From: Opitutales bacterium
Lineage (GTDB): Bacteria > Verrucomicrobiota > Verrucomicrobiia > Opitutales > T3Sed10-336
Reading direction: 5' to 3'
Assembly: GCA_007130045.1 (NCBI GenBank)
Contig: SLTG01000004.1
Span: forward strand, 1 to 54,031
DNA length: 54,031 nt
Part shown: in pieces, positions 1,571 through 44,622 of the stretch
Layout: each line of letters opens with the position of its first letter
Position numbering within the stretch: the stretch's first letter is position 1
The notes under the pieces: model-generated
Told to the model about the DNA's origin: nothing
Databases searched by the model: none
The model's input: the letters and a program-made list of their open reading frames with translations, nothing else
Translations under genes and position numbers: made by a program

Positions 1571-4231
1571 TTACCTTTTTTTTGGGACAATTATATAAGG
1601 CGTTTCCTTATCCAAATCAGGATATAATCTACCCTGACCAGTATTATCCATAAATTCGAAGAGATACATAAAGTCATATTCAGGGTCGAGGTGTTCGGCG
1701 GGAACCGTTGCGTGATATGTGTTTTCTTCTGTTGTCGGATACATTTGCAGGTATTGGTAATTCTCGGTCTGATCTACATTACGGTAAAACAAACGCGCCC
1801 ATTTGACTCCGGCAGGAGCGCTTACCCTTACGTGAACCGGAACGGATTCATTAACCGATAGATTCTCAACAGGTTGATGGCTCACCTGAAATTGGTAATC
1901 GTATTCCTCAACAGCTTCATAAGAAGGCGCCGGAATCCAGCTGCCTTCAGGGCGTCCGCCAACATCACGTCTCTCCTGTTCAAGACTTGCAAGACCCTCT
2001 TCCAATCGGACGAGTTCGTCCTTCCAATGACCACTGAGACCGGAGATTGACAACCGTACGTCAGTCTCCCTTCCACGGTTACCCATCATTAAATCGTCAG
2101 TATAAACATCGCCGGCCGCAGCCACGATTTCCCGCCAGGCCTCAATAGCATTGCGTTCATAGGCAATCGCATCCTCAAGTGCCGATACATCATTAGTGCG
2201 CTTGAACAAGCGATAACTAACCGCTGCGGGTATCCTCCTCGAGTGAAAAAGCGACAGGTTTGATAGAATCTTCAGGTCTGTGATAATAGAATCGAATTCT
2301 TTGTTTCGACTGTCTCCGACAACATCTTCAGCTTCGTCTATCAATCCGCTGATTTCCGCGGATCTCCGCTCAAACCAAAGGCTATTCCTTGAAGGCCGCA
2401 TCCTTGCCGTCTCCCCGCCTTCAATAAGCAATTGAGCTTCATCATCAAAACTTGCGAATTGCCGTATGTCACTTCCTTGATTCATAGCATAGCGAGGCAG
2501 ATCTCCAATCCGCTGCATTTCGACCCACCCACGAGTCATCGGAAAGCCGCTGAAATAATTGCTACATGAGGCAACAATGCGCGGCAGTATCCAACTGGCC
2601 TTATTCAAGGCTTCCTCGACCAATGGAGCAGCTTCTGCTCCAAAGCGAATTTTAAACTCATTTTGCCATACCTCGGGTGCTGTTTCGGGATTATAACCAA
2701 TTCGGCCAAAGAACAGAAAATAAGGCCAATAGCGTTCGAACTCGTAATCATAGTACCGATACTGGGGATTCAACAGATCAAATGGCTCGGCATCATGTGG
2801 ATGCGCCTGCATCTTGGTCGCCAGGGGTTCGGAAATTTCAAAACCATCGCCATTATACAAATGAGTGCTTTCGGAAAATCGGCGGACATACTCCGGATCC
2901 CCCCATAAGAGTACTCTCGTTGTTCCGCCACTCCAAAGCCGCCAGTGCATCTTATATTCTTGCGGATAAACAAGCAGATCCGCGTAACCGTGGCGGCGGT
3001 GAGGTTGGTCCTCCCGATTCACCTGTGTCGGATGAAACGGCATTCCCATTTGTTCCATCCAATATTTAGTACCAATCCGAAAATTAATCTCATTGTCCAC
3101 CGCACTTTGAATTACGCTATCGGACAGTCCCTTGGCGCGCAGGGTTAGAAGCAGATCAGGCGCAGCCTCTTTTACCATTTTCAATATGTTGGGCCAGAAA
3201 ACCTCTTGTTCGTCATCTGACAGGCCTGATTCATCGTGCATGCGAAATTGAATGCCGTCGAGATCCGGCATTAACTTGATAAACTTATTCAATGCAGCTA
3301 AGGTATAATAGGTAAGGTTTTCCGCATCAACACCTTGCACTTGATGTGGCGCGACTTGAATATCTTCTTCAAAGCTTTCATTGGCACCCTCTTGAATGCT
3401 TCGGGCTCTTCTGGTACTCCCTCGGATATGGTCCCAAAAGCCAAGCGTGAAACTGATGCCTCTATCATTCGCCATTTTGTTCAGCCGAATTAAGGCGTCC
3501 AGATTACGTTGTTGTTCCTCCGGAGAAACGCCCGGCATGCCGATTTCGGGAAATCCTTCCACGTCAAAAAAATAGGGATACGCAGGTGCTACAAAACCAT
3601 CAATCTCATATCCAAAAATCACAACTAGCGAGTTAAGTCGGCTGTCTGCCATCAAATCAAGGTAACGCTCCCAATATGCTTCATCGTAGAACCTGCTTTC
3701 CCAATAGGAGCGATTAAAAGTATAGACAGAAATCGCACGATCTCTTACATCCGGCTTCTCTGTTTTCTCCTTGACCTTACTCAGTACGGATTCTCCGCTG
3801 CCGCTCCAACCTATGCGATTCGCCACGTCCAACAAAGCATACATTAACCCCCGATCATCAAAGCCACATATCACCCAAACTGGTTTATCTTGCCAGTTTG
3901 TCTTAAATATCGTCAATGCCTCTTGTATCCGAGGTGGATTATGGCCGCTTTCTTTTAAAAGGTTCGAAGCCGTACCAGCCTCAAATCCCAACCCTGCCAC
4001 AATAATCTTATCCCCCCGGGCTTCATCCAGGGACTTGGTTTTTTCAAAGGTGACATTTTTCGCCTGTAATGCATCCGTTAACTTAGTGAGACCATGCGAG
4101 GCAGGAGCTTCGAACGCTTCATCTATTACTATGGAGATTTCAGGATATTCGTTGCCGACACGAGCAAGACTGAACAGTTGAAATGACGACATGAAGACAA
4201 CCGTTAATAATATTGGAAGTGGATATTTCAC
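1571..4231 (-). CDS. Large secreted putative glycoside hydrolase (alpha-glucuronidase-like architecture)
   Basis: 886 residues. The start is GTG at 4231 and gives an ordinary signal peptide (MKYPLPILLTVVFMSSFQLF, cleavage near SLA/R). Residues about 30-140 resemble the small alpha/beta domain found before the barrel in GH67/GH20/GH115-type enzymes (VIDEAFEAPASHGLTKL, GFDDRGLMYALLDVANRIGW). A TIM-barrel-like part follows, rich in aromatic residues (FNRSYWESRFYDEAYWERYL, YVGYEID-like strands, FTLGFWDHIRG, DGIQFRMHDESGL). The last ~100 residues look like a beta-sandwich (VPVHVRVSAPAGVKWARLFY). Catalytic acids cannot be assigned with certainty; MHDESG is a candidate. Base composition is more AT-rich than the housekeeping genes. 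With the upstream lyase-like gene it suggests polysaccharide breakdown. The exact GH family is unknown. Confidence 0.65.
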   Translation of the reverse strand: MKYPLPILLTVVFMSSFQLFSLARVGNEYPEISIVIDEAFEAPASHGLTKLTDALQAKNVTFEKTKSLDEARGDKIIVAGLGFEAGTASNLLKESGHNPPRIQEALTIFKTNWQDKPVWVICGFDDRGLMYALLDVANRIGWSGSGESVLSKVKEKTEKPDVRDRAISVYTFNRSYWESRFYDEAYWERYLDLMADSRLNSLVVIFGYEIDGFVAPAYPYFFDVEGFPEIGMPGVSPEEQQRNLDALIRLNKMANDRGISFTLGFWDHIRGSTRRARSIQEGANESFEEDIQVAPHQVQGVDAENLTYYTLAALNKFIKLMPDLDGIQFRMHDESGLSDDEQEVFWPNILKMVKEAAPDLLLTLRAKGLSDSVIQSAVDNEINFRIGTKYWMEQMGMPFHPTQVNREDQPHRRHGYADLLVYPQEYKMHWRLWSGGTTRVLLWGDPEYVRRFSESTHLYNGDGFEISEPLATKMQAHPHDAEPFDLLNPQYRYYDYEFERYWPYFLFFGRIGYNPETAPEVWQNEFKIRFGAEAAPLVEEALNKASWILPRIVASCSNYFSGFPMTRGWVEMQRIGDLPRYAMNQGSDIRQFASFDDEAQLLIEGGETARMRPSRNSLWFERRSAEISGLIDEAEDVVGDSRNKEFDSIITDLKILSNLSLFHSRRIPAAVSYRLFKRTNDVSALEDAIAYERNAIEAWREIVAAAGDVYTDDLMMGNRGRETDVRLSISGLSGHWKDELVRLEEGLASLEQERRDVGGRPEGSWIPAPSYEAVEEYDYQFQVSHQPVENLSVNESVPVHVRVSAPAGVKWARLFYRNVDQTENYQYLQMYPTTEENTYHATVPAEHLDPEYDFMYLFEFMDNTGQGRLYPDLDKETPYIIVPKKR

Positions 4232-22495: not shown

Positions 22496-22827
22496 GCGGA
22501 TTCGCGAAACAGACTCAGAGCATGTTACCCCTCTGTGATGCTCGATTGACGTCGTTTTCGATGCAATCGTTGGGGTGTCGGCATGTGAAGCGCCCGACTC
22601 GAAGAGCGAAGGCCGGTTGGTTGCCCGGGGCGGCGGATAAATCCCAGAGGTCGCGTTCCGCCTTCGTGACGACCGACCTTGTTAATTCATTCCGATCAAG
22701 AGAAACAATAGATTGAATGATCATCGGGCAAGCAAGACCCGGTGCCGCCAAACGCGAGTCATGGCACGGCGAACACCTGCGACCGTCCCTCGTATTTCGG
22801 TTGTCTAAATATGTCGGGAGAGTCGGG
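22496..22827. other. Intergenic stretch between addA and a convergent gene
   Basis: About 330 bases with no supportable gene. It contains one copy of a dispersed repeat (22721-22808) described separately. No T-tailed hairpin was seen. Confidence 0.5.
22721..22808. repeat. Dispersed repeat R2, copy 1
   Basis: About 88 bases resembling 34471-34557. Shared blocks in order include TCATCGG, GCCAAACGC, AACAC, TGCGAC, GTCCCTCG and TTTCGGTTGTCT. It lies 3' of a plus-strand gene (addA), as does the other copy. Confidence 0.6.
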
Positions 22828-34415: not shown

Positions 34416-34757
34416 GCCTTTCGGGTTCGTGTTCTTGATGCGTTCAGATTAAGAGGAACGGACGGGGTGTTCATCGGACAACGCCCGGCGCTGCCAAACG
34501 CAGGTCACAGTACAGTAAACACTTGCGACGGTCCCTCGCTTTTCGGTTGTCTTAACATTCTTCCATGTTAAAGTACGCGTGGTCCTCGTCACTTCCCGGC
34601 ATGATGCAGGCCACGATATTCCGGAACTCATCCGCGTTGAGTGTGTTGTTCAATCCGGACCGCATTTGAAATATTGCGGTTTACCGACAGGCGACAGACA
34701 CGATTGGTGGAACGCGAGGGATAACCTTGTCGGGGTGAGCCGGATCGCTATGTTCGG
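34416..34757. other. Intergenic stretch before the P-type ATPase
   Basis: About 340 bases. It holds copy 2 of repeat R2 (34471-34557) and otherwise no supportable gene. No copper-regulator operator palindrome was recognised. Confidence 0.4.
34471..34557. repeat. Dispersed repeat R2, copy 2
   Basis: Similar to 22721-22808 over about 88 bases, with conserved blocks TCATCGG, GCCAAACGC, GCGAC, GTCCCTCG and TTTTCGGTTGTCT. Minus-strand translations are also alike (KRGTVASV here, IRGTVAGV in copy 1), though neither copy forms a convincing gene. Confidence 0.6.
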
Positions 34758-37532: not shown

Positions 37533-38435
37533 TCAACCACCACTAGGCAACGGATCATCAGGCTTAATATTATTTCTGGTTGTGGCACCAGAAACGAATA
37601 TCTTGGAAAAACCTTGTACCGCCTGTCCCGCATTATACAGGCCCCATCTGACCTGCTGATCGCCACTGCCACGCCCATCGTGAGAATCTCTAAGGACCTC
37701 CTTGCCATCCATCCAGATTATATAGTCCGTGCCGTTATCCCTGACGACAATGTCAAATGAAGTCCCTATTACGCCGGAGGCGATCTTCACACGTGAACGT
37801 CCCAGCCTTCCGACATACAAATCTCCATTATCCATGCTTAGGTTCACTGCCCAGTAAGTCCTATTGTACTTGATCTGAAATATTGCAGTGTTATTTTGGG
37901 TTGTGGGAGATACCATGGAGATAATCGTATATCTTGCAGACCATTCATTCCATTGGCCTTTCGGACCAAAATTCCCGAAGGCTTCAACCCGGGGGCGTGG
38001 CCTGGTATCACTGTTGCTTTCGCCCTCAAACAGTCTGAAAACCTGAGTATTACCATCTTCCTGATACCAGCGGCTCCATTTGTAAAAGTCTTTTCGTTGT
38101 GTTGCAGTTGTATTGGTGCCGATAGTATGAATTCTAATGTCCTCCATAATCGGGCGATTCGCGATATCACCAACCTCAACAAGTGATTCATTCACGGTTA
38201 TTTTTGAGCCCGATACCCCGCCTGACTCATTTGTTGCATTTCTAAAGTCGGTAGACCAGTCTGCGTCTTCGCCGGTTTGCGTGTAAAGATCCCGAGAAAA
38301 AAGCTGCTGATTAAAAAGTAAAGCAAAACCTGCCATCCCGATACATAGGTTTCGAATTGATGATCGGATAAGAAATCGCTTTCTATAGGGTGCGGGAAAA
38401 CGTCCACTGGAATCGGTCTGAAGTTGTGCTCTCAT
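37533..38435 (-). CDS. Secreted beta-jelly-roll protein resembling PL7/PL13/PL20 polysaccharide lyases
   Basis: 300 residues from ATG 38435. The first ~25 residues (MRAQLQTDSSGRFPAPYRKR) are encoded by repeat cassette copy A and precede the signal helix NLCIGMAGFALLFN. The core has the PL7-like order of motifs: RPRVEAFGNFGPKGQWNEWS (R..E strand), AIFQIKYNRTYWAVNLS and QVRWGLYN. In true PL7 enzymes the second motif is QIH or QVH; here the His is Lys, so catalysis is uncertain and glycan binding is an alternative. More AT-rich than housekeeping genes. The predicted transcript start coincides with the ATG. Confidence 0.6.
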   Translation of the reverse strand: MRAQLQTDSSGRFPAPYRKRFLIRSSIRNLCIGMAGFALLFNQQLFSRDLYTQTGEDADWSTDFRNATNESGGVSGSKITVNESLVEVGDIANRPIMEDIRIHTIGTNTTATQRKDFYKWSRWYQEDGNTQVFRLFEGESNSDTRPRPRVEAFGNFGPKGQWNEWSARYTIISMVSPTTQNNTAIFQIKYNRTYWAVNLSMDNGDLYVGRLGRSRVKIASGVIGTSFDIVVRDNGTDYIIWMDGKEVLRDSHDGRGSGDQQVRWGLYNAGQAVQGFSKIFVSGATTRNNIKPDDPLPSGG

Positions 38436-38475
38436 GTAAAAAGATGTGCCATCTCGGGCTGGCGATGTCAAGTCC
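38367..38475 (-). repeat. Promoter-micro-ORF cassette, copy A
   Basis: Minus strand: TTGACA (38466-38471), 18-bp GC-rich spacer, ACATCT (38442-38447), then ATG at 38435, 7 nt after the -10. The reading frame MRAQLQTDSSGRFPAPYRKR, ending at a block AAGCGATTTCTTATC shared with copy D, stays open and becomes the N-terminus of the jelly-roll gene. Confidence 0.75.
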
Positions 38476-39090
38476 TTTGGAGGAAACCTGATAAAAAGGC
38501 CTCTTCGCTATTTGATATGGGTGATTACGGAGGGAAGCCTGAGAGCATTCCAGGGTCAATTGGCACTGTGTTAGTTGGCTGTCCCAACGACGAAGCCATT
38601 TAATAGCAAAACCTTAAGGTAAATAAGATGGGCCGAAACGCAGGGATTTTCCTGGCTTCGGCCTAAAAAGGGTTCTATTTTTCCGCGAGCTGATCAGTTG
38701 TTCGAATCTGGAATTTAACGTTAATATTGCCCTGATGTTGCAAAAATCGAAAAAGCCCGCCGTGGCGGCGTTGGGCTCTCGGCGCGCCGGGACTCGCTCA
38801 TCGAGCGCAGTACCTTCATGACAATTTCCATGAATGTTTTACGGGGTTCAAGATCCTTTGACAGACCTACCCCGTTCATCGCAACAATCGTATGTAACCC
38901 CCAGTGGAAACCATCAATTTCACAGGGCGATTGAAGGGGTCTCAATAGTCAAGGTGCGACATCATACAGTCCGTTGACGTCCGTGAAATGAGTTTTTCCC
39001 TCCCGCCATCGCCTCACGCGTTTTGAGCTCTTTGTTTTTGCCTTTCGCGCAAGGCTACGGCGAAATGGTCCCGAACGGCCGGCACGGAAT
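38472..39090. other. Intergenic stretch with a hairpin and no supported gene
   Basis: About 620 bases. GGCCGAA (38631-38637) pairs with TTCGGCC (38657-38663), with an inner CAGG/CCTG pairing; it may end transcripts of the beta-helix gene. A minus-strand frame at 38721-38945 (74 codons) is Arg/Ser-rich at its end and has no recognisable motif. Confidence 0.4.
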
Positions 39091-41655
39091 TTACAGCATA
39101 TCGATACGCACTTTCAGGCGAAAGAATCTGCGGCCTTCAATACCGTCAGGAAACTCAACGACAACGCGGCGTCCTGTGCCTGCGATATCCCGGGCGTCCT
39201 CAAGCTCGTGCCAGATCGAGAAGTCTTCAGAATATTCCACCGTGTAATACCGTATGAGACCCTCATAACCCGGACCTGTCGCCTCCCTGGTGTTGAATGC
39301 CAGAGTGAATGGGTCGCCGGTGTCATCAATTTCCAATGGAGGATCAAAGTTTGGCACGGCGGGATCGGTGCCGAGGATGTATTCAGCCCAATTGTCGTAG
39401 GCGTCGCCGTCCGGGTTGGCGGTCATCGCCGCCTCTCCGGTGTCGTCGGTTGTGCCGAAATGGTGCGAACGCCACATTTCGGTTCTGGTTAGCCAAAACG
39501 GGGGCGGGGAGACGAATGAAACCGAGTTGATGCTGTTCCAGTCGTTCACGGTATTACCATAGCCGATTATGCGGATATATCGAGCAACGGTTTCGGTGAC
39601 ATCGTAGGATTGGGGAGTATTGGACAGCGAGCTGGTAGAACCCGAGAGGTCCGAGTAAACATTCGTCCAGGCAACCCCATCCATAGAGGTTTCAATTTCA
39701 AAGCTGAAGAAGCGCTCGTTCCCATTAAACCAGGCAATCCAGGCCTGGGAGACCGTTGCCGGCTCTTCCAGCATGAACTCGATGTATTGACCGTCACCCT
39801 GTGCCGACCACCGGGTATCCGGATCGTCGTCGAGGGTGTTTTCCGGAACATTGGGATCTTGATGATCACTTGCCGTCACGGAGGCAACCTTTAGCGGGAT
39901 CAAGGGTTCAACGGGTTCCGGATCGACGCCGGAATCATCTCCCAGTCGCCGCGCCAACTGATCCAGGTAAAGGGATTGCGGCTGCAAGGTGGCGCCCTGG
40001 CCTATTCCCTCGACGATATCCACAGGAGCGGAGCGGATGCCACCCACATCATAGCGGAAGGCCCAATTGTCAGGCGGCTGATAACGTACATCCGGTCTAT
40101 CCCCGCTGGTTCCGATCACATACCCGTAGCGAGTTTGCGATGTGGCCACAGCCAAAGGAAAGCGGTTGCCCATCGCCCGTATATTCCAGACAACCGAATG
40201 CGCGGTCACGGCATTGTGATCATTGGCGACGCCAAGGCGATGCACGATACGGTACAAGCTGTTGTGCATCGTCATATCGTCAATCAGGCAGGACGGGGAA
40301 AACCACATGTGGAAGTCAGAGCCGCTTGAGCCCGTACGCAGCCGGCCGGTGACCCCGGTACATTTGCGTGAATCAGCGTCCAGCGATCGGTGGATGACGA
40401 TTCCCGAGGCGCGCATGAACGAAATAACAAATCCATGACGGAATGTTTCGGCGGAACAGTCCGTCAAAAGAATTTCGTTGGATTGAATACGAAAGCCGTA
40501 GCCATTTCCACCCCCGCCGCCATATTGGGCGCTTTTCAAGTGAACGGACTCCAAGGTAACCCCGCGGCATTCATCGAGAATTATGCCGTTTGAAAGCATA
40601 TGCGAACCCGCGCTATTCACATTGGGCTGGTAGGAGCTGACATTTCTAATCCAACTGTTGCGAATTCGGGTAATATCGATGAGCCATGACTGATGATTGT
40701 GGTAAGCCCCGTTGGAGGAATTGCTGTGGGCGTTATTATTGAGAGTTCCATCGGGATCCTGCCATCCAGTGGTGTTCGTGGATTCGCGATTACCGATGGC
40801 GAGGTTTTCGATACCCACCTCTTCGAGCATTGGGGGTGCCAGATAAACGCGGGCATTGTCGCGGGGTTTCAGTGCGTAGCGCAGTGGCACGTCGATTTCA
40901 ATTTCATTGGTTGATGAATTGATGGCGACAATCTGGCGGTAAAAAGTCGTTCCCCGCAAACTGCTCTTCCTTGCTTTCCATTCGACTTCCAAATGCTCAT
41001 CGGCCCAGGCATCGGTCATATTATTCCGGACAATCACCCAATCGCCCGCGGAAAATTGAGACACCGATTGAACCGGGATGAACCGGGTAGGAGTCATTAA
41101 GTCGGCTGTGATGTTCGTCATGCTCGAGCTGTGATTGCTGTTCCAACCCGGACCGGATGCGGGAATAACCTTGATAATGGCCTTTTGGCGCATATTGCTG
41201 CTATTGTTGAAGATCCGGGTTTGGTTGGGTCCGGCTCCGCGAAGCACGACATGGGAATGACGGATTTCCAGGCAATGGTCGCGAGAACCCGGTTCGACCC
41301 GGTAGGTTCCCGGCGGGAGAAATACCACACCTCCACCTTGGTTGCCAACGTCGTCAATGGCGGCTTGTATGGCGGCGGTGGAACTCGTCGCACCCGTGGG
41401 ATCGGCAGCGTAGGGCCTGTCGGTTACATCGACCGAAATACCGGGGTCAGAAGTGGGTAGGGGGATCTCCCCCATGTGGTAGCCCGCATACGAGAAATCC
41501 TGTATAAACGCATCCGTGTAGAAATTGGCATTCTCAGGAGGCGTCCAATCTTCCGGGTAATAAGTGCTGCGCCATGAGGACTGAGCGGTGGCTGTGGGTA
41601 TCAATAGTAAGAGGAAATTAAACCCAATGAATGCAAGTTGAAATTTCAAGTTCAT
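39091..41655 (-). CDS. Secreted pectate-lyase-3-like beta-helix protein with discoidin (F5/8 C) domain
   Basis: 854 residues from ATG 41655, directly before the signal peptide LAFIGFNFLLLLIPTATAQ; ATG 41706 would add 17 residues encoded by the promoter repeat. Beta-helix part: RPYAADPTGATSSTAAIQAA, GGGVVFLPPGTYRVEP, VVLRGAGPNQTRIFNNSSN, WIRNVSSYQPNVNSAG. This is the pectate_lyase_3/GH55-like opening. Discoidin-like carbohydrate-binding domain around residues 600-730 (NTLDDDPDTRWSAQGDGQYI, RYIRIIGYGN). The C-terminal ~90 residues are a beta module (TVEYSEDFSIWHELEDARD) common at the end of secreted Verrucomicrobiota proteins. Likely acts on an extracellular polysaccharide; substrate unknown. 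Confidence 0.78.
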   Translation of the reverse strand: MNLKFQLAFIGFNFLLLLIPTATAQSSWRSTYYPEDWTPPENANFYTDAFIQDFSYAGYHMGEIPLPTSDPGISVDVTDRPYAADPTGATSSTAAIQAAIDDVGNQGGGVVFLPPGTYRVEPGSRDHCLEIRHSHVVLRGAGPNQTRIFNNSSNMRQKAIIKVIPASGPGWNSNHSSSMTNITADLMTPTRFIPVQSVSQFSAGDWVIVRNNMTDAWADEHLEVEWKARKSSLRGTTFYRQIVAINSSTNEIEIDVPLRYALKPRDNARVYLAPPMLEEVGIENLAIGNRESTNTTGWQDPDGTLNNNAHSNSSNGAYHNHQSWLIDITRIRNSWIRNVSSYQPNVNSAGSHMLSNGIILDECRGVTLESVHLKSAQYGGGGGNGYGFRIQSNEILLTDCSAETFRHGFVISFMRASGIVIHRSLDADSRKCTGVTGRLRTGSSGSDFHMWFSPSCLIDDMTMHNSLYRIVHRLGVANDHNAVTAHSVVWNIRAMGNRFPLAVATSQTRYGYVIGTSGDRPDVRYQPPDNWAFRYDVGGIRSAPVDIVEGIGQGATLQPQSLYLDQLARRLGDDSGVDPEPVEPLIPLKVASVTASDHQDPNVPENTLDDDPDTRWSAQGDGQYIEFMLEEPATVSQAWIAWFNGNERFFSFEIETSMDGVAWTNVYSDLSGSTSSLSNTPQSYDVTETVARYIRIIGYGNTVNDWNSINSVSFVSPPPFWLTRTEMWRSHHFGTTDDTGEAAMTANPDGDAYDNWAEYILGTDPAVPNFDPPLEIDDTGDPFTLAFNTREATGPGYEGLIRYYTVEYSEDFSIWHELEDARDIAGTGRRVVVEFPDGIEGRRFFRLKVRIDML

Positions 41656-41717
41656 AGGAATTCGGTTTTCGGTCTTGGATCCGCTGATATCATCTTCAAG
41701 CGCCATTGCTATAGTGG

Positions 41718-41746
41718 AAAGTAGCGAAACTGGGCGGCAAAGTCAA
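41718..41746 (-). promoter_or_regulatory. Diverged fifth promoter copy (B') before the beta-helix gene
   Basis: Minus strand: TTGACT (41741-41746), 17 bp including GCCGCCCAGTTTCGC, then TACTTT (41718-41723). Spacer and -10 resemble those of copy B (GCCGGCCCGATTCCGC). The TGA ending the copy B micro-ORF (41743-41745) lies inside this -35 box. Confidence 0.5.
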
Positions 41747-41832
41747 AAAAAGTTTACATTATTTGGCAGGACATCGCTTTGCGGACGTGACGGGACACGC
41801 CCGCAGGGAGCGGTCTTAAGGAGCACTTTCAT
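41743..41832 (-). CDS. 29-residue micro-ORF of cassette copy B
   Basis: ATG 41832 to TGA 41743. The translation begins MKVLLKTAPCGRVPSRPQSD. The ATG lies 7 nt after the -10 TATATT, so the message would be leaderless. Related frames occur in copies A, C and D. No similarity to a named peptide family. Confidence 0.35.
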   Translation of the reverse strand: MKVLLKTAPCGRVPSRPQSDVLPNNVNFF

Positions 41833-41880
41833 AATGGCAATATAGCGGAATCGGGCCGGCGAGGTCAAGTCCGGCTTCAG
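41760..41880 (-). repeat. Promoter-micro-ORF cassette, copy B
   Basis: Minus strand: CTGAAGCCGGAC, TTGACC (41863-41868), spacer of 18, TATATT (41839-41844), ATG 41832. Spacer TCGCCGGCCCGATTCCGC is identical to that of copy D. It lies between the end of the enolase-superfamily gene and the beta-helix gene. Confidence 0.78.
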
Positions 41881-41915
41881 TCTGGGAAACACCAGGTGTG
41901 ATCGCGGGAATGAAG

Positions 41916-43001
41916 TCACAGGGTTTGAATTTTATACTCTGATTGCTCCATCCATTTTTTGCAAATAGTAACACCCCATCCTGGCCCGTCAGGAATTTGC
42001 AACATGCCATTCGAAACTTTCAATTCCGGTTCAAATATGCCTTCAACCCAGGGGGCATCTTCTATAGAGAATTCAAGAGGACCCGCATTGTCAATAGCAC
42101 CCAACATATGAGCGGTAAACACTGTTACCATAGACAGATTGGCAGCATGCGGTCTTACAGGCATGCCCGCACCTGCTGCCATTTGTGCAACACGCATAGC
42201 GCGACTTATACCTCCGATATAGCATATATCAGGTTGTACAATATCAACTACTCTGTCATTGATCATTTGCTTGAATATTCCTAGACTGACATCCTGTTCT
42301 CCACCAGCAACTGGAATATCCAGGGCTCTTGTTACTTGTGCTGTCCAATCGAGTTCCCAATATGGACAAGGTTCTTCAAAATGTCCTACATTATAATCTT
42401 CTAGCATACGCCCCACTTCAATGGCTCTATTGGGAGAGTAACAACTGTTAGCATCCACATATAGGATCGTATCTTCTCCGAGTGCTTTCCTCACAGTTGG
42501 AACGATTTCCTCTGTCCTTCCCGGGCTTGCATCTTTGTTATGTCCGCATTGACTTCCCACTCTTATTTTAAAAGCCTTAAAGCCATTAGCGTTTTTTAAC
42601 TTTACAAGACGTTCTGCTTCATCTTTAGGAGTAATGTCTCTTCGCATACTTGATCCATATACATCAATATATTTGGGCTTGCCTCCTAGCAGTTCACACA
42701 CACTTTTCCCCAATCGTTTTCCGTGAAGATCCCATAGTGCGGTATCTAAACCACCTACAGCACGACAGGTATGGGAACCGGGAAACTTGGAATTTTGTTC
42801 GAGGCAGTGCTGTATTAATTTATCAATATTAAACACATCAATGTCCAAAGCATGGGGAGCAATTTGCTGATGCAAAATTTGTGCTGTTATGTTTGCATGA
42901 TAGGGAGCTATCTGCCCATATCCTTCTAAACCATCTTCAGTTCTTACACGGACTAGAGAAATCTTTGGTTGTGTAAATGTTTCTATGCTGGAAATTCTCA
43001 T
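41916..43001 (-). CDS. Enolase-superfamily (mandelate racemase/muconate lactonizing type) sugar-acid dehydratase or racemase
   Basis: 361 residues. N-terminal capping domain (IETFTQPKISLVRVRTEDGL), then the barrel with FKAFKIRVGSQ (second strand, K-x-R instead of K-x-K), metal ligands in LYVDANSCYS (Asp), HFEEPCPYWEL (Glu) and GGEQDVSLG (Glu), and PHAANLSMV late (candidate general base His). This Mg-dependent family abstracts the alpha proton of sugar acids, fitting uronate breakdown beside lyase-like proteins. The gene is markedly AT-rich, uses A/T-ending codons and has a clear GAAGGAG before ATG, unlike its neighbours: probable transfer. Confidence 0.85.
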   Translation of the reverse strand: MRISSIETFTQPKISLVRVRTEDGLEGYGQIAPYHANITAQILHQQIAPHALDIDVFNIDKLIQHCLEQNSKFPGSHTCRAVGGLDTALWDLHGKRLGKSVCELLGGKPKYIDVYGSSMRRDITPKDEAERLVKLKNANGFKAFKIRVGSQCGHNKDASPGRTEEIVPTVRKALGEDTILYVDANSCYSPNRAIEVGRMLEDYNVGHFEEPCPYWELDWTAQVTRALDIPVAGGEQDVSLGIFKQMINDRVVDIVQPDICYIGGISRAMRVAQMAAGAGMPVRPHAANLSMVTVFTAHMLGAIDNAGPLEFSIEDAPWVEGIFEPELKVSNGMLQIPDGPGWGVTICKKWMEQSEYKIQTL

Positions 43002-43201
43002 GATTTATTTTCTCCTTCAAAATAAACGCCATAAGCCAGAAGCTGTCTTTTTTAAGACGCGATATGGCAGGCAAAACAGCGGTTTTTGTTTGCAAATGCG
43101 CACTCGAGTCTGATGTCATATATCATATCTGCTGCAAACAGATTTTCTGAATAGATCTACAGCTTTTACTTAACACTTTCTAGGCTCCAATTCAGCTAAT
43201 G

Positions 43202-43288
43202 CTACCTCGTCTCTGCTTGATTAGATATCAAGTCGCTTTTCGGGAAGTTCGTGCAAACGCTCACTAGACCCTGAAGGTGCGCCTTCAT
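43202..43288 (-). CDS. 28-residue micro-ORF of cassette copy C
   Basis: ATG 43288 to TAG 43202. The translation begins MKAHLQGLVSVCTNFPKSDL. The start lies 7 nt after the predicted -10 ACACTT, as in copies A and B. It ends about 200 bases before the enolase gene, so that gene would use its own Shine-Dalgarno on a longer transcript. Confidence 0.35.
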   Translation of the reverse strand: MKAHLQGLVSVCTNFPKSDLISNQAETR

Positions 43289-43338
43289 GTAAAAAAGTGT
43301 GCCGAATCTGGCTAGCGATGTCAACGTCCGGCTTCAGA
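43224..43338 (-). repeat. Promoter-micro-ORF cassette, copy C
   Basis: Minus strand: CTGAAGCCGGACG, TTGACA (43319-43324), spacer of 18, ACACTT (43295-43300), TTTTTACATGAAGGCGCAC. The start region TTTTTACATGA is shared with copy A and the 5' flank with copy B. It is oriented toward the enolase-superfamily gene. Confidence 0.75.
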
Positions 43339-43502
43339 GGTGTCTCGAACGCTCTCGAGGCGTGGGTGATACGTAAATGTCCGAACTGCTTCTTGTGAAC
43401 CGAATCGAACTGAAATTTCCGGCAGGATATTATTGCTTCCGACCTTAGCGGGAATGGCACTCGGTTAATGGCGTTGTGGAGCACTGTACCTCCATCCTGT
43501 GC

Positions 43503-43541
43503 CATAACGACAAACCCCACCAGCCGTCAGGCTGGTGGGGT
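43503..43541 (-). terminator. Strong hairpin, probable terminator of the CBM-like gene
   Basis: CCCCACCAGCC and GGCTGGTGGGG pair perfectly (12 bp with the flanking A-T) around GTCA/TGAC. On the minus strand the stem is followed by TTTGTCGTT. It lies about 180 bases after the stop of the 43724-44470 gene. Confidence 0.55.
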
Positions 43542-43723
43542 GTCTCGGCGAACCCGATGAATATCGCAGGTCTTCCGCCGCCTGATTCTCCCCGACTGTT
43601 CGCCTTATCCGAGTGTCATTCACCCTAGCGGAGAATACTCACGCGTCATATACTGGTTTATCTTCGGTAACGGATCCTTGAAATAAATCTATATTAATGA
43701 ACAAGGTGCCATCAACCGCTGGC

Positions 43724-44470
43724 TCAATCATCAGACGAGCTGCCATCAGCCCGAGGCTCCAGCATCAGTTTAACTTCCCCGTCCCGGACGTCAGCCATTG
43801 ATACTTTGGATGTATCAAATAAAACAATATAATCCATAATTGCACGCTTTGAACGCCCTGAGACTGTTAATGTGTAAACCTCATCTTTTTTTAAATTATA
43901 AAACAACCTTTTCTTAACATTTTCACCATCAATTCTTCTTTCGCCCAAAACAGTCCAGCCCCATTCGCGATCGGGAACACTTGAAAAATAGTGCTTTGTA
44001 TCTGATTCTAATATAGATTTGGAAAATGTGTCATGGGAACCAAATTCACCTGGTTCAAAATCGCCTTCCATTCTGACGAAATAATCGTTACAATGATCAT
44101 TCCTGGCGCCTTCTAAAATTCTGCTGGATCGGATTGTCAGTTGATAAGTGCCACTTTCGGGTGCTTTAAAAGTATATTTAATCGGAGAGTCAGGCGGCCC
44201 AAGATTTGGAGCATTCCCGGTAAAATAAAGCATAACGTCATTGGATGCTCCTGGAAAAAACCTCGGATGTCCGGGGCTGATTATCTCCCAATTACCCAGG
44301 GGAGAATTTGTATGTTCGGCTTGAAAAACCAGAACTCCTTCTGTGTCGGTTGGAGTGAGGGGTGTCAATCGTTCAGATGAGTTGCCATGAACGGAAGAAA
44401 CAGTTGTGAAACAGATCAAAAGCAATGATAGAATCAAAGCTAATGAGAAGAAGTTGGTTTTCGTTTTCAT
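43724..44470 (-). CDS. Secreted CBM6/galactose-binding-like protein
   Basis: 248 residues from ATG 44470. Signal peptide MKTKTNFFSLALILSLLLIC. One beta-sandwich domain with the pattern of CBM6-type modules: GVLVFQAEHTNSPLGNWEII, IKYTFKAPESGTYQLTIRSS, NDYFVRMEGDF and VYTLTVSGRSKRAIMDYIVL. No catalytic motif is visible, so it is probably a secreted carbohydrate-binding or uncharacterised module. AT-rich like the enolase gene. Preceded by cassette copy D. Confidence 0.65.
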   Translation of the reverse strand: MKTKTNFFSLALILSLLLICFTTVSSVHGNSSERLTPLTPTDTEGVLVFQAEHTNSPLGNWEIISPGHPRFFPGASNDVMLYFTGNAPNLGPPDSPIKYTFKAPESGTYQLTIRSSRILEGARNDHCNDYFVRMEGDFEPGEFGSHDTFSKSILESDTKHYFSSVPDREWGWTVLGERRIDGENVKKRLFYNLKKDEVYTLTVSGRSKRAIMDYIVLFDTSKVSMADVRDGEVKLMLEPRADGSSSDD

Positions 44471-44506
44471 AGATAATTAATTTTGTGGTCAGTTGTATTG
44501 GTTTTT

Positions 44507-44622
44507 GATAAGAAATCGCTTTTCAGGCGGCACGGGCACACACCCGCTGACACCGTACTGAAGAAGCACCCTGATTTTAAAAGCATAGCGGAATCGGGCC
44601 GGCGATGTCAAGTCCGACTTCA
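44507..44622 (-). repeat. Promoter-micro-ORF cassette, copy D (start codon lost)
   Basis: Minus strand: TGAAGTCGGAC, TTGACA (44606-44611), spacer TCGCCGGCCCGATTCCGC, TATGCT (44582-44587). At the position of the ATG in other copies (44575) there is ATC. The frame still reads IRVLLQYGVSGCVPVPPEKR and stays open to TGA 44489. It shares GATTTCTTATC with copy A. It lies 36 bases upstream of the CBM-like gene. Confidence 0.78.

Follow-up and report, generated by a model that had tools for sequence, protein, structure and literature searches.

Putative mobile promoters have reportedly been described by Matus-Garcia, Nijveen and van Passel ("Promoter propagation in prokaryotes"). ISCR1 carries functional outward promoters (POUT) at its ori side, which raise downstream expression 13-15-fold (PMC6218425). 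In a transposition assay of IS801, 26% of the insertions were right-end fragments of 229-679 nt, produced by one-ended transposition, while most of the natural IS801 fragments in P. syringae were attributed to rearrangement (PMC3189936). The preliminary description of the locus analyzed here took a duplicated promoter cassette with a conserved leaderless micro-ORF to be something not described before, which was wrong in kind, because IS91-like elements with outward promoters at their ori end are known, as in the case of ISCR1 POUT (PMC6218425).

The window, that is, the whole 54,031-nt stretch under analysis, is contig C93 of an Opitutales genome (G000; 3.4 Mb, 146 contigs). Four repeat copies (A-D) had been reported on its minus strand, each 5′ of a different gene. 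Positions, strand and neighboring genes were all confirmed, and alignment showed the copies to be related over ~115 nt each. The features are listed below; bit scores refer to profile R1, which was built partly from the window copies A-D themselves.

37533..38435, minus strand: gene 3′ of copy A, a 300-codon ORF with a signal-peptide-like stretch and no Pfam family, in frame with the ATG of copy A
38363..38477, minus strand: copy A, very probably a solo right (ori-type) end of the IS91 family (88.4 bits); putative −35 box TTGACA 38471-38466, ATG 38435-38433, terminal TTATC at 38367
39091..41706, minus strand: gene 3′ of copy B, 871 aa, pectate-lyase-like (RHGA/epimerase, PF12708) with F5/8 type C (PF00754)
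41680..41760, minus strand: possible fifth copy, strongly degraded (TTTTGACTTTGCCGCCCAGTTTCGCTAC...), seen by eye and in a MAFFT alignment; weak, below the profile threshold
41761..41877, minus strand: copy B, same repeat family as A by alignment (76.5 bits); putative −35 box TTGACC 41868-41863, ATG 41832-41830
41916..43001, minus strand: gene 3′ of copy C, 361 aa, mandelate racemase/muconate lactonizing enzyme of the enolase superfamily (PF13378, PF02746)
43220..43334, minus strand: copy C, same repeat family as A (78.8 bits); putative −35 box TTGACA 43324-43319, ATG 43288-43286
43724..44470, minus strand: gene 3′ of copy D, 248 aa, signal peptide-like N-terminus, no Pfam family
44503..44620, minus strand: copy D, same repeat family as A (94.7 bits); putative −35 box TTGACA 44611-44606, ATC in place of ATG 44575-44573, terminal TTATC at 44507

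The right end of copy B is degraded, with CTGCC in place of TTATC, and the possible fifth copy directly follows B and overlaps the 5′ end of the pectate-lyase-like ORF. Two other repeated sequences were observed in the window. A stretch of ~100 nt (38579-38678), located between copy A and the pectate-lyase gene, matches contigs C110 and C278 of another Opitutales genome (G003) at 86-87%, and C278 also has a near-Kiritimatiellae IS91 end; this segment may be what is left of another mobile element. The second is a direct repeat of 80 nt (22733-22812 and 34479-34558, plus strand, 78% identical), unrelated to copies A-D, with a third, partial copy at G000:C128:8128-8164.

In the alignment of the four window copies, the block runs from TGAAGYCGGAC-TTGACA past the ATG to GAAAAGCGATTTCTTATC. 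The preliminary description had overlooked that its 3′ half (CCTGAAAAGCGATTTCTTATC), and not the promoter, is the most strongly conserved part. Consistent with this pattern, copies on contigs C36, C130, C60, C82 and C89 had the ATG-to-TTATC part in common, and their upstream part was unlike the window type. A 26-nt core (TTGACNTCGCCGGCCCGATTCCGCTA) matched two copies and gave 0 chance matches in 100 shuffles. Also missed was that the consensus is palindromic (GAAAGCGCTCCTTCAG versus CTGAAAAGCGATTTC, with an inner stem GCGGGC/GCCCGC). The palindrome is imperfect and terminates at TTATCAAT.

In a Kiritimatiellae genome (G054, contig C4; L206 and L265), two elements lying 4.3 kb apart and identical at 95.7% over 1,617 bp both end exactly in the repeat block. 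In each element, the transposase gene stops ~118 nt (non-coding) before the ~115-nt end block and encodes Y2_Tnp (PF04986) together with Zn_Tnp_IS91 (PF14319), that is, a Y2 transposase with an N-terminal zinc-binding domain (E values of 2.5e-21 and 4.1e-19, respectively). The first of the two transposases scored 175.8 bits against the NCBIfam IS91 transposase equivalog NF033538 and thus passed its cut-off of 125. By inspection, the left (TCTTCATGGGTATGCC) and right (...AAGCGATTTCTTATCAAT) termini were not inverted copies of each other; the lack of terminal inverted repeats, the constant right (ori) end 3′ of the transposase and the variable left ends all fit the IS91 family. A tblastn search of the DNA 5′ of every copy detected, in 14 of them, a same-strand transposase C-terminus that ends 60-123 nt before the block. 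These 14 include the G054 pair; in the other 12 the C-terminus is decayed and often frameshifted. The 14 copies span Opitutales, Kiritimatiellae, Spartobacteria and others, and one of them lies on contig C114 of the window's own genome, where the translated flanks of the copies on C130 (VVDPCNDDPFPDYETEPVMGSL) and C36 also hold a transposase remnant. Between the two G054 elements, directly beyond the 3′ end of the first full IS91 copy, translation reading revealed a dihydropteroate-synthase-like (folP) gene (positions 1827-2640 of L206, G054:C4:226900-234400); ISCR elements are known companions of sul4 (PMC12772301).

Upstream of A-D, tblastn at E<0.01 found no transposase remnant, as expected of 5′-truncated ends, and we therefore call A-D solo ends rather than elements. 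Their origin would follow from homology of the end alone: they are homologous over the whole terminal region (76-95 bits to R1) and share a tree with copies that are physically linked to a transposase. Copy C in addition keeps ~50 nt of IS sequence (ATCACCCACGCC...) 5′ of its −35 box, in common with contigs C114 and C88. We conclude that the window repeats are very probably right ends of IS91-family (HUH/Y2 rolling-circle) elements that bear an outward putative promoter and have lost the transposase by 5′ truncation or decay. A synteny search for an empty site of the window cluster in seven relatives found none, with only the repeats themselves and short fragments matching.

A search for further copies in the same genome yielded ~19 beyond the four of the window: blastn found 14 places at E <= 0.2, and R1, built from 15 copies, found 23 at E < 1e-4. 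The repeat also occurs in other Verrucomicrobiota, namely in 33 of 289 genomes and 28 of 153 genera of an even draw (match E <= 1e-6). We count this patchy spread as support for the IS91-end reading. Close relatives ranged from 19 matches (G003) down to chance-level ones only. When 84,980 species genomes were scanned with CCTGARAAGCGATTTNTTATCRA, 45 stretches emerged, mostly from Kiritimatiellae, Lentisphaerae, Opitutales, Spartobacteria and MAGs labeled "PVC group"; the few in Clostridiaceae, Treponema, Mollicutes, Alphaproteobacteria, Armatimonadota and Ectothiorhodospiraceae are probably misbinned contigs. In a tree of 99 copies, those of G000 fell into at least two separate lineages, and one copy of the Opitutales genome G003 fell among Kiritimatiellae copies. 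A distant blastn search of plasmids did not recover the repeat end, and we found no literature on Verrucomicrobia and interspersed palindromic repeats. At several loci (L126, L136, L154, L156, L160, L166 and L170), contigs start or stop ~100 nt from the block, as expected of a high-copy identical repeat that breaks assembly; copy numbers in MAGs are probably underestimates.

The limits of the block were compared among 116 copies. The 3′ boundary is sharp, with at least ~1 bit per position through TTATCA, fading over AAT and then ~0; information falls to zero after TTATCAAT. The fade over the last four positions (C in 106, A in 95, A in 73 and T in 87 of the copies) is gradual, and these positions could be the target tetranucleotide, which in the IS91 family is of the GAAC/CAAG type. 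The 5′ ends are not constant among copies, and some loci (L150, L202/L155, L211) hold 3′ fragments in tandem. A sharp 3′ boundary combined with variable 5′ ends is what one-ended IS91 transposition predicts: rolling-circle transfer by the transposase would begin at the fixed right end but break off at different places on the opposite side, so that the resulting short copies share their 3′ end and differ in their 5′ ends. Considering that natural IS801 fragments were mostly attributed to rearrangement (PMC3189936), both one-ended transposition and later recombination may have operated here. Two copies adjoin 3′ gene fragments by translation, one encoding the C-terminus of a photolyase (C36), the other that of an oxidoreductase (C120), which fits insertion or rearrangement and not a designed leader. 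At L120, a truncated ATPase fragment is followed by a 5′-truncated end and then by a sulfatase-like gene, as read from the translation.

Many copies are solo, short and similar in extent, and in several MAGs the contig ends carry short copies that are nearly identical, as might also be seen if the repeat were a non-autonomous, MITE-like element with two defined ends, mobilized in trans by an IS91 transposase. We consider this unlikely, because the 5′ boundaries vary among copies, a constant left end was not found, and many copies grade into decayed transposase. A spread of the reverse-transcription type, with its 5′ truncation and tandem 3′ fragments, was dropped once the IS91 transposase had been found, since one-ended rolling-circle transfer accounts for the same features. 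The grouping of each copy with a single gene prompted us to consider integron attC sites, but inspection by eye revealed no attC consensus.

The proposal of a mobile, duplicated promoter stood, in the probable form of ~23 IS91-family ends with an outward putative promoter in this genome. Among the 105 copies with 60 nt of upstream DNA, TTGAC was present at the expected place in 79, compared with 4 of 105 shuffled sequences, and in 54 of the 79 it lay exactly 36 nt before the ATG (the mode). A −10-like hexamer follows in most copies, with a spacer and gap of 18 and 6 nt (30 copies) or 17 and 7 nt (19 copies). These counts indicate that the promoter geometry of the preliminary description holds across lineages whose spacer sequences differ, with two amendments: the spacer measures 17-18 nt, according to the placement of the −10 box, and the gap to the ATG is 6-7 nt rather than exactly 7. 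Judged by its sequence, the outward sigma70-like promoter in the end is genuine, and we infer that it is active. The nearest downstream gene was on the same strand in 75 cases and on the opposite strand in 19, counts that come from copies not fully independent of one another. Within 150 nt the ratio was 56:6, inflated because the simple ORF caller extends forward ORFs to the first start codon, an effect that leaves 75:19 untouched. The gene upstream of the copies was on the same strand in 49 cases and on the opposite strand in 34. When an end lands 5′ of a gene, the promoter would start a transcript at or next to the block ATG that runs into the gene, and the same-strand bias would follow if copies were retained for their promoter activity. 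Separately, a signal-peptide gene at L124 (G003:C171, positions 2985-3037) has its ATG after a very similar promoter (TTGACATCGTCACCCCGATTTGTCACTCTTTTTCAC) without the transposon block, and is a candidate natural leaderless gene.

The same geometry bears on the micro-ORF, since a −10-to-ATG gap of 6-7 nt would place the transcript start on the ATG. The preliminary description had proposed that the mobile promoter drives a conserved, translated and functional leaderless micro-ORF, with frames of 28-29 codons in B, C and D. The lengths to the stop codon (29, 28 and 28 codons) were correct; the conservation was not. The stops lie at or beyond the block end, in unrelated flanking DNA, and the shared block is one DNA sequence on to TTATC, in which the reading frame differs between the window copies. 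Three of the four are broken, by a 1-nt deletion in B, a 4-nt deletion in C and ATC for ATG in D, and in copy A the frame from the ATG stays open through the downstream gene, 300 codons in all. Among 106 distinct copies, 60 have a start codon, an intact frame and no stop, as a functional micro-ORF would require; the start codon (ATG, GTG or TTG) is kept in 88 and lost in 18, 26 are frameshifted and 17 contain an internal stop. In a long variant of the end, which occurs in L141, L144, L154, L156, L170, L237 and others and is common to Kiritimatiellae and Lentisphaerae MAGs, the loop region contains an additional hairpin of 30 nt (AGCCTGTCTGCGTGCGGACACGCACAGGCAGGC); this insert preserves the ATG frame, another point in favor of coding. 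By contrast, no codon signature was detected. Entropies at codon positions 1, 2 and 3 were alike (0.83, 0.81 and 0.85), and 292 of 983 differences were synonymous, compared with the 295.6 that these substitution types would give in the absence of coding constraint; frame conservation thus does not exceed nucleotide identity, a result that bears on the copies and less on the active parent element, because dead copies drift neutrally after insertion and look neutral even if the parent coded. Third positions are near invariant across phyla in AAGCGATTTCTTATC, and the amino acids that had appeared to be shared follow from DNA identity. A functional micro-ORF is therefore highly improbable. What was read as one coincides with the 5′ arm of the terminal palindrome plus its loop and starts with an ATG by chance; it may sometimes be translated, or fused in frame as in copy A, yet is not maintained as a coding sequence. 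In-frame elements of the Rickettsia type, considered because the ATG frame is open into genes in some copies, were dropped, as the frames are not kept and the case of L120 resolved into the ATPase fragment, truncated end and sulfatase-like gene noted above.

The palindrome also raises the question of a structured regulatory RNA leader, riboswitch-like or a protein-bound 5′ UTR, inherited with its regulon. The block begins at the predicted transcript start, 5′ of genes of which several serve carbohydrate breakdown, and the stems pair in 80-84% of cells compared with 22-55% for slid partners. Pair counts, however, found no compensatory base changes and no covariation beyond column make-up (504 paired cells versus 503 shuffled in the outer stem, 361 versus 362 in the inner stem), shuffled sequence folds as well as copies A and C do (mean fold z-score of the copies, −0.78), there is no credible Rfam match, and the physical link to transposases and the patchy spread also speak against an inherited leader, which makes this reading very hard to sustain. 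The lack of covariation and the shuffle-like folding of A and C suggest that the palindrome is ancestral sequence left unrepaired in the copies.

Fourteen genes 3′ of G000 copies were scanned against Pfam. By raw count in this non-random set, six of the 14 are polysaccharide-active: the pectate-lyase-like gene of copy B, two alpha-L-rhamnosidases, a GH95, an alginate lyase/PL14 and a weak GH39. The remainder comprise a phosphoketolase, a zinc alcohol dehydrogenase, a sulfate permease, the enolase-superfamily enzyme and four genes without a family. It is conceivable, though doubtful, that soda-lake Opitutales and other PVC bacteria have co-opted IS91-family right ends as a dispersed stock of ready-made promoters for driving accessory genes of polysaccharide breakdown, with in-frame fusions such as copy A sometimes supplying the start codon. 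Elsewhere, on contig C440 of G057 (L143/L254), a 5′-truncated end directly follows the CCA of a tRNA gene (by eye), with a same-strand ORF 53 nt further on.

Taken together, these results put a name to the probable vehicle behind the "mobile promoter" pattern: an IS91-type rolling-circle element appears to have spread its promoter-bearing end over Verrucomicrobiota, Kiritimatiellae and Lentisphaerae, mostly before same-strand genes. If the promoters are active, they would offer catabolic genes a route to expression after transfer, and if the tentative co-option reading is true, the system would be a CAZyme counterpart of ISCR1 and its resistance genes. For annotation, such ends can mimic conserved micro-ORFs or N-terminal extensions.

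Like the putative mobile promoters, this promoter is duplicated 5′ of unrelated genes in one genome; unlike them, it has an identified vehicle, most probably an IS91-family transposon end. The element resembles IS91, IS801 and IS1294 (HUH Y2) in its transposase family (PF04986 and PF14319, NF033538 above cut-off), in having its end 3′ of the transposase gene, and in its fixed right end and variable left ends, and it shares solo right-end fragments with IS801 (PMC3189936). It differs from these elements in belonging to a branch of PVC bacteria, whose best plasmid-borne IS91 relatives are 28-33% identical among the matches listed, in a right flank that prefers CAAT and not GAAC/CAAG, and in a putative promoter that adjoins a palindrome beginning with ATG. 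Like ISCR1, it is IS91-like, with ori-side outward promoters, here predicted, upstream of same-orientation accessory genes (PMC6218425). By contrast, the first G054 transposase scored 111.8 bits against the NCBIfam model of ISCR clade Ia, below the cut-off of 925, and the passengers observed are carbohydrate-degradation and transport genes rather than resistance genes.
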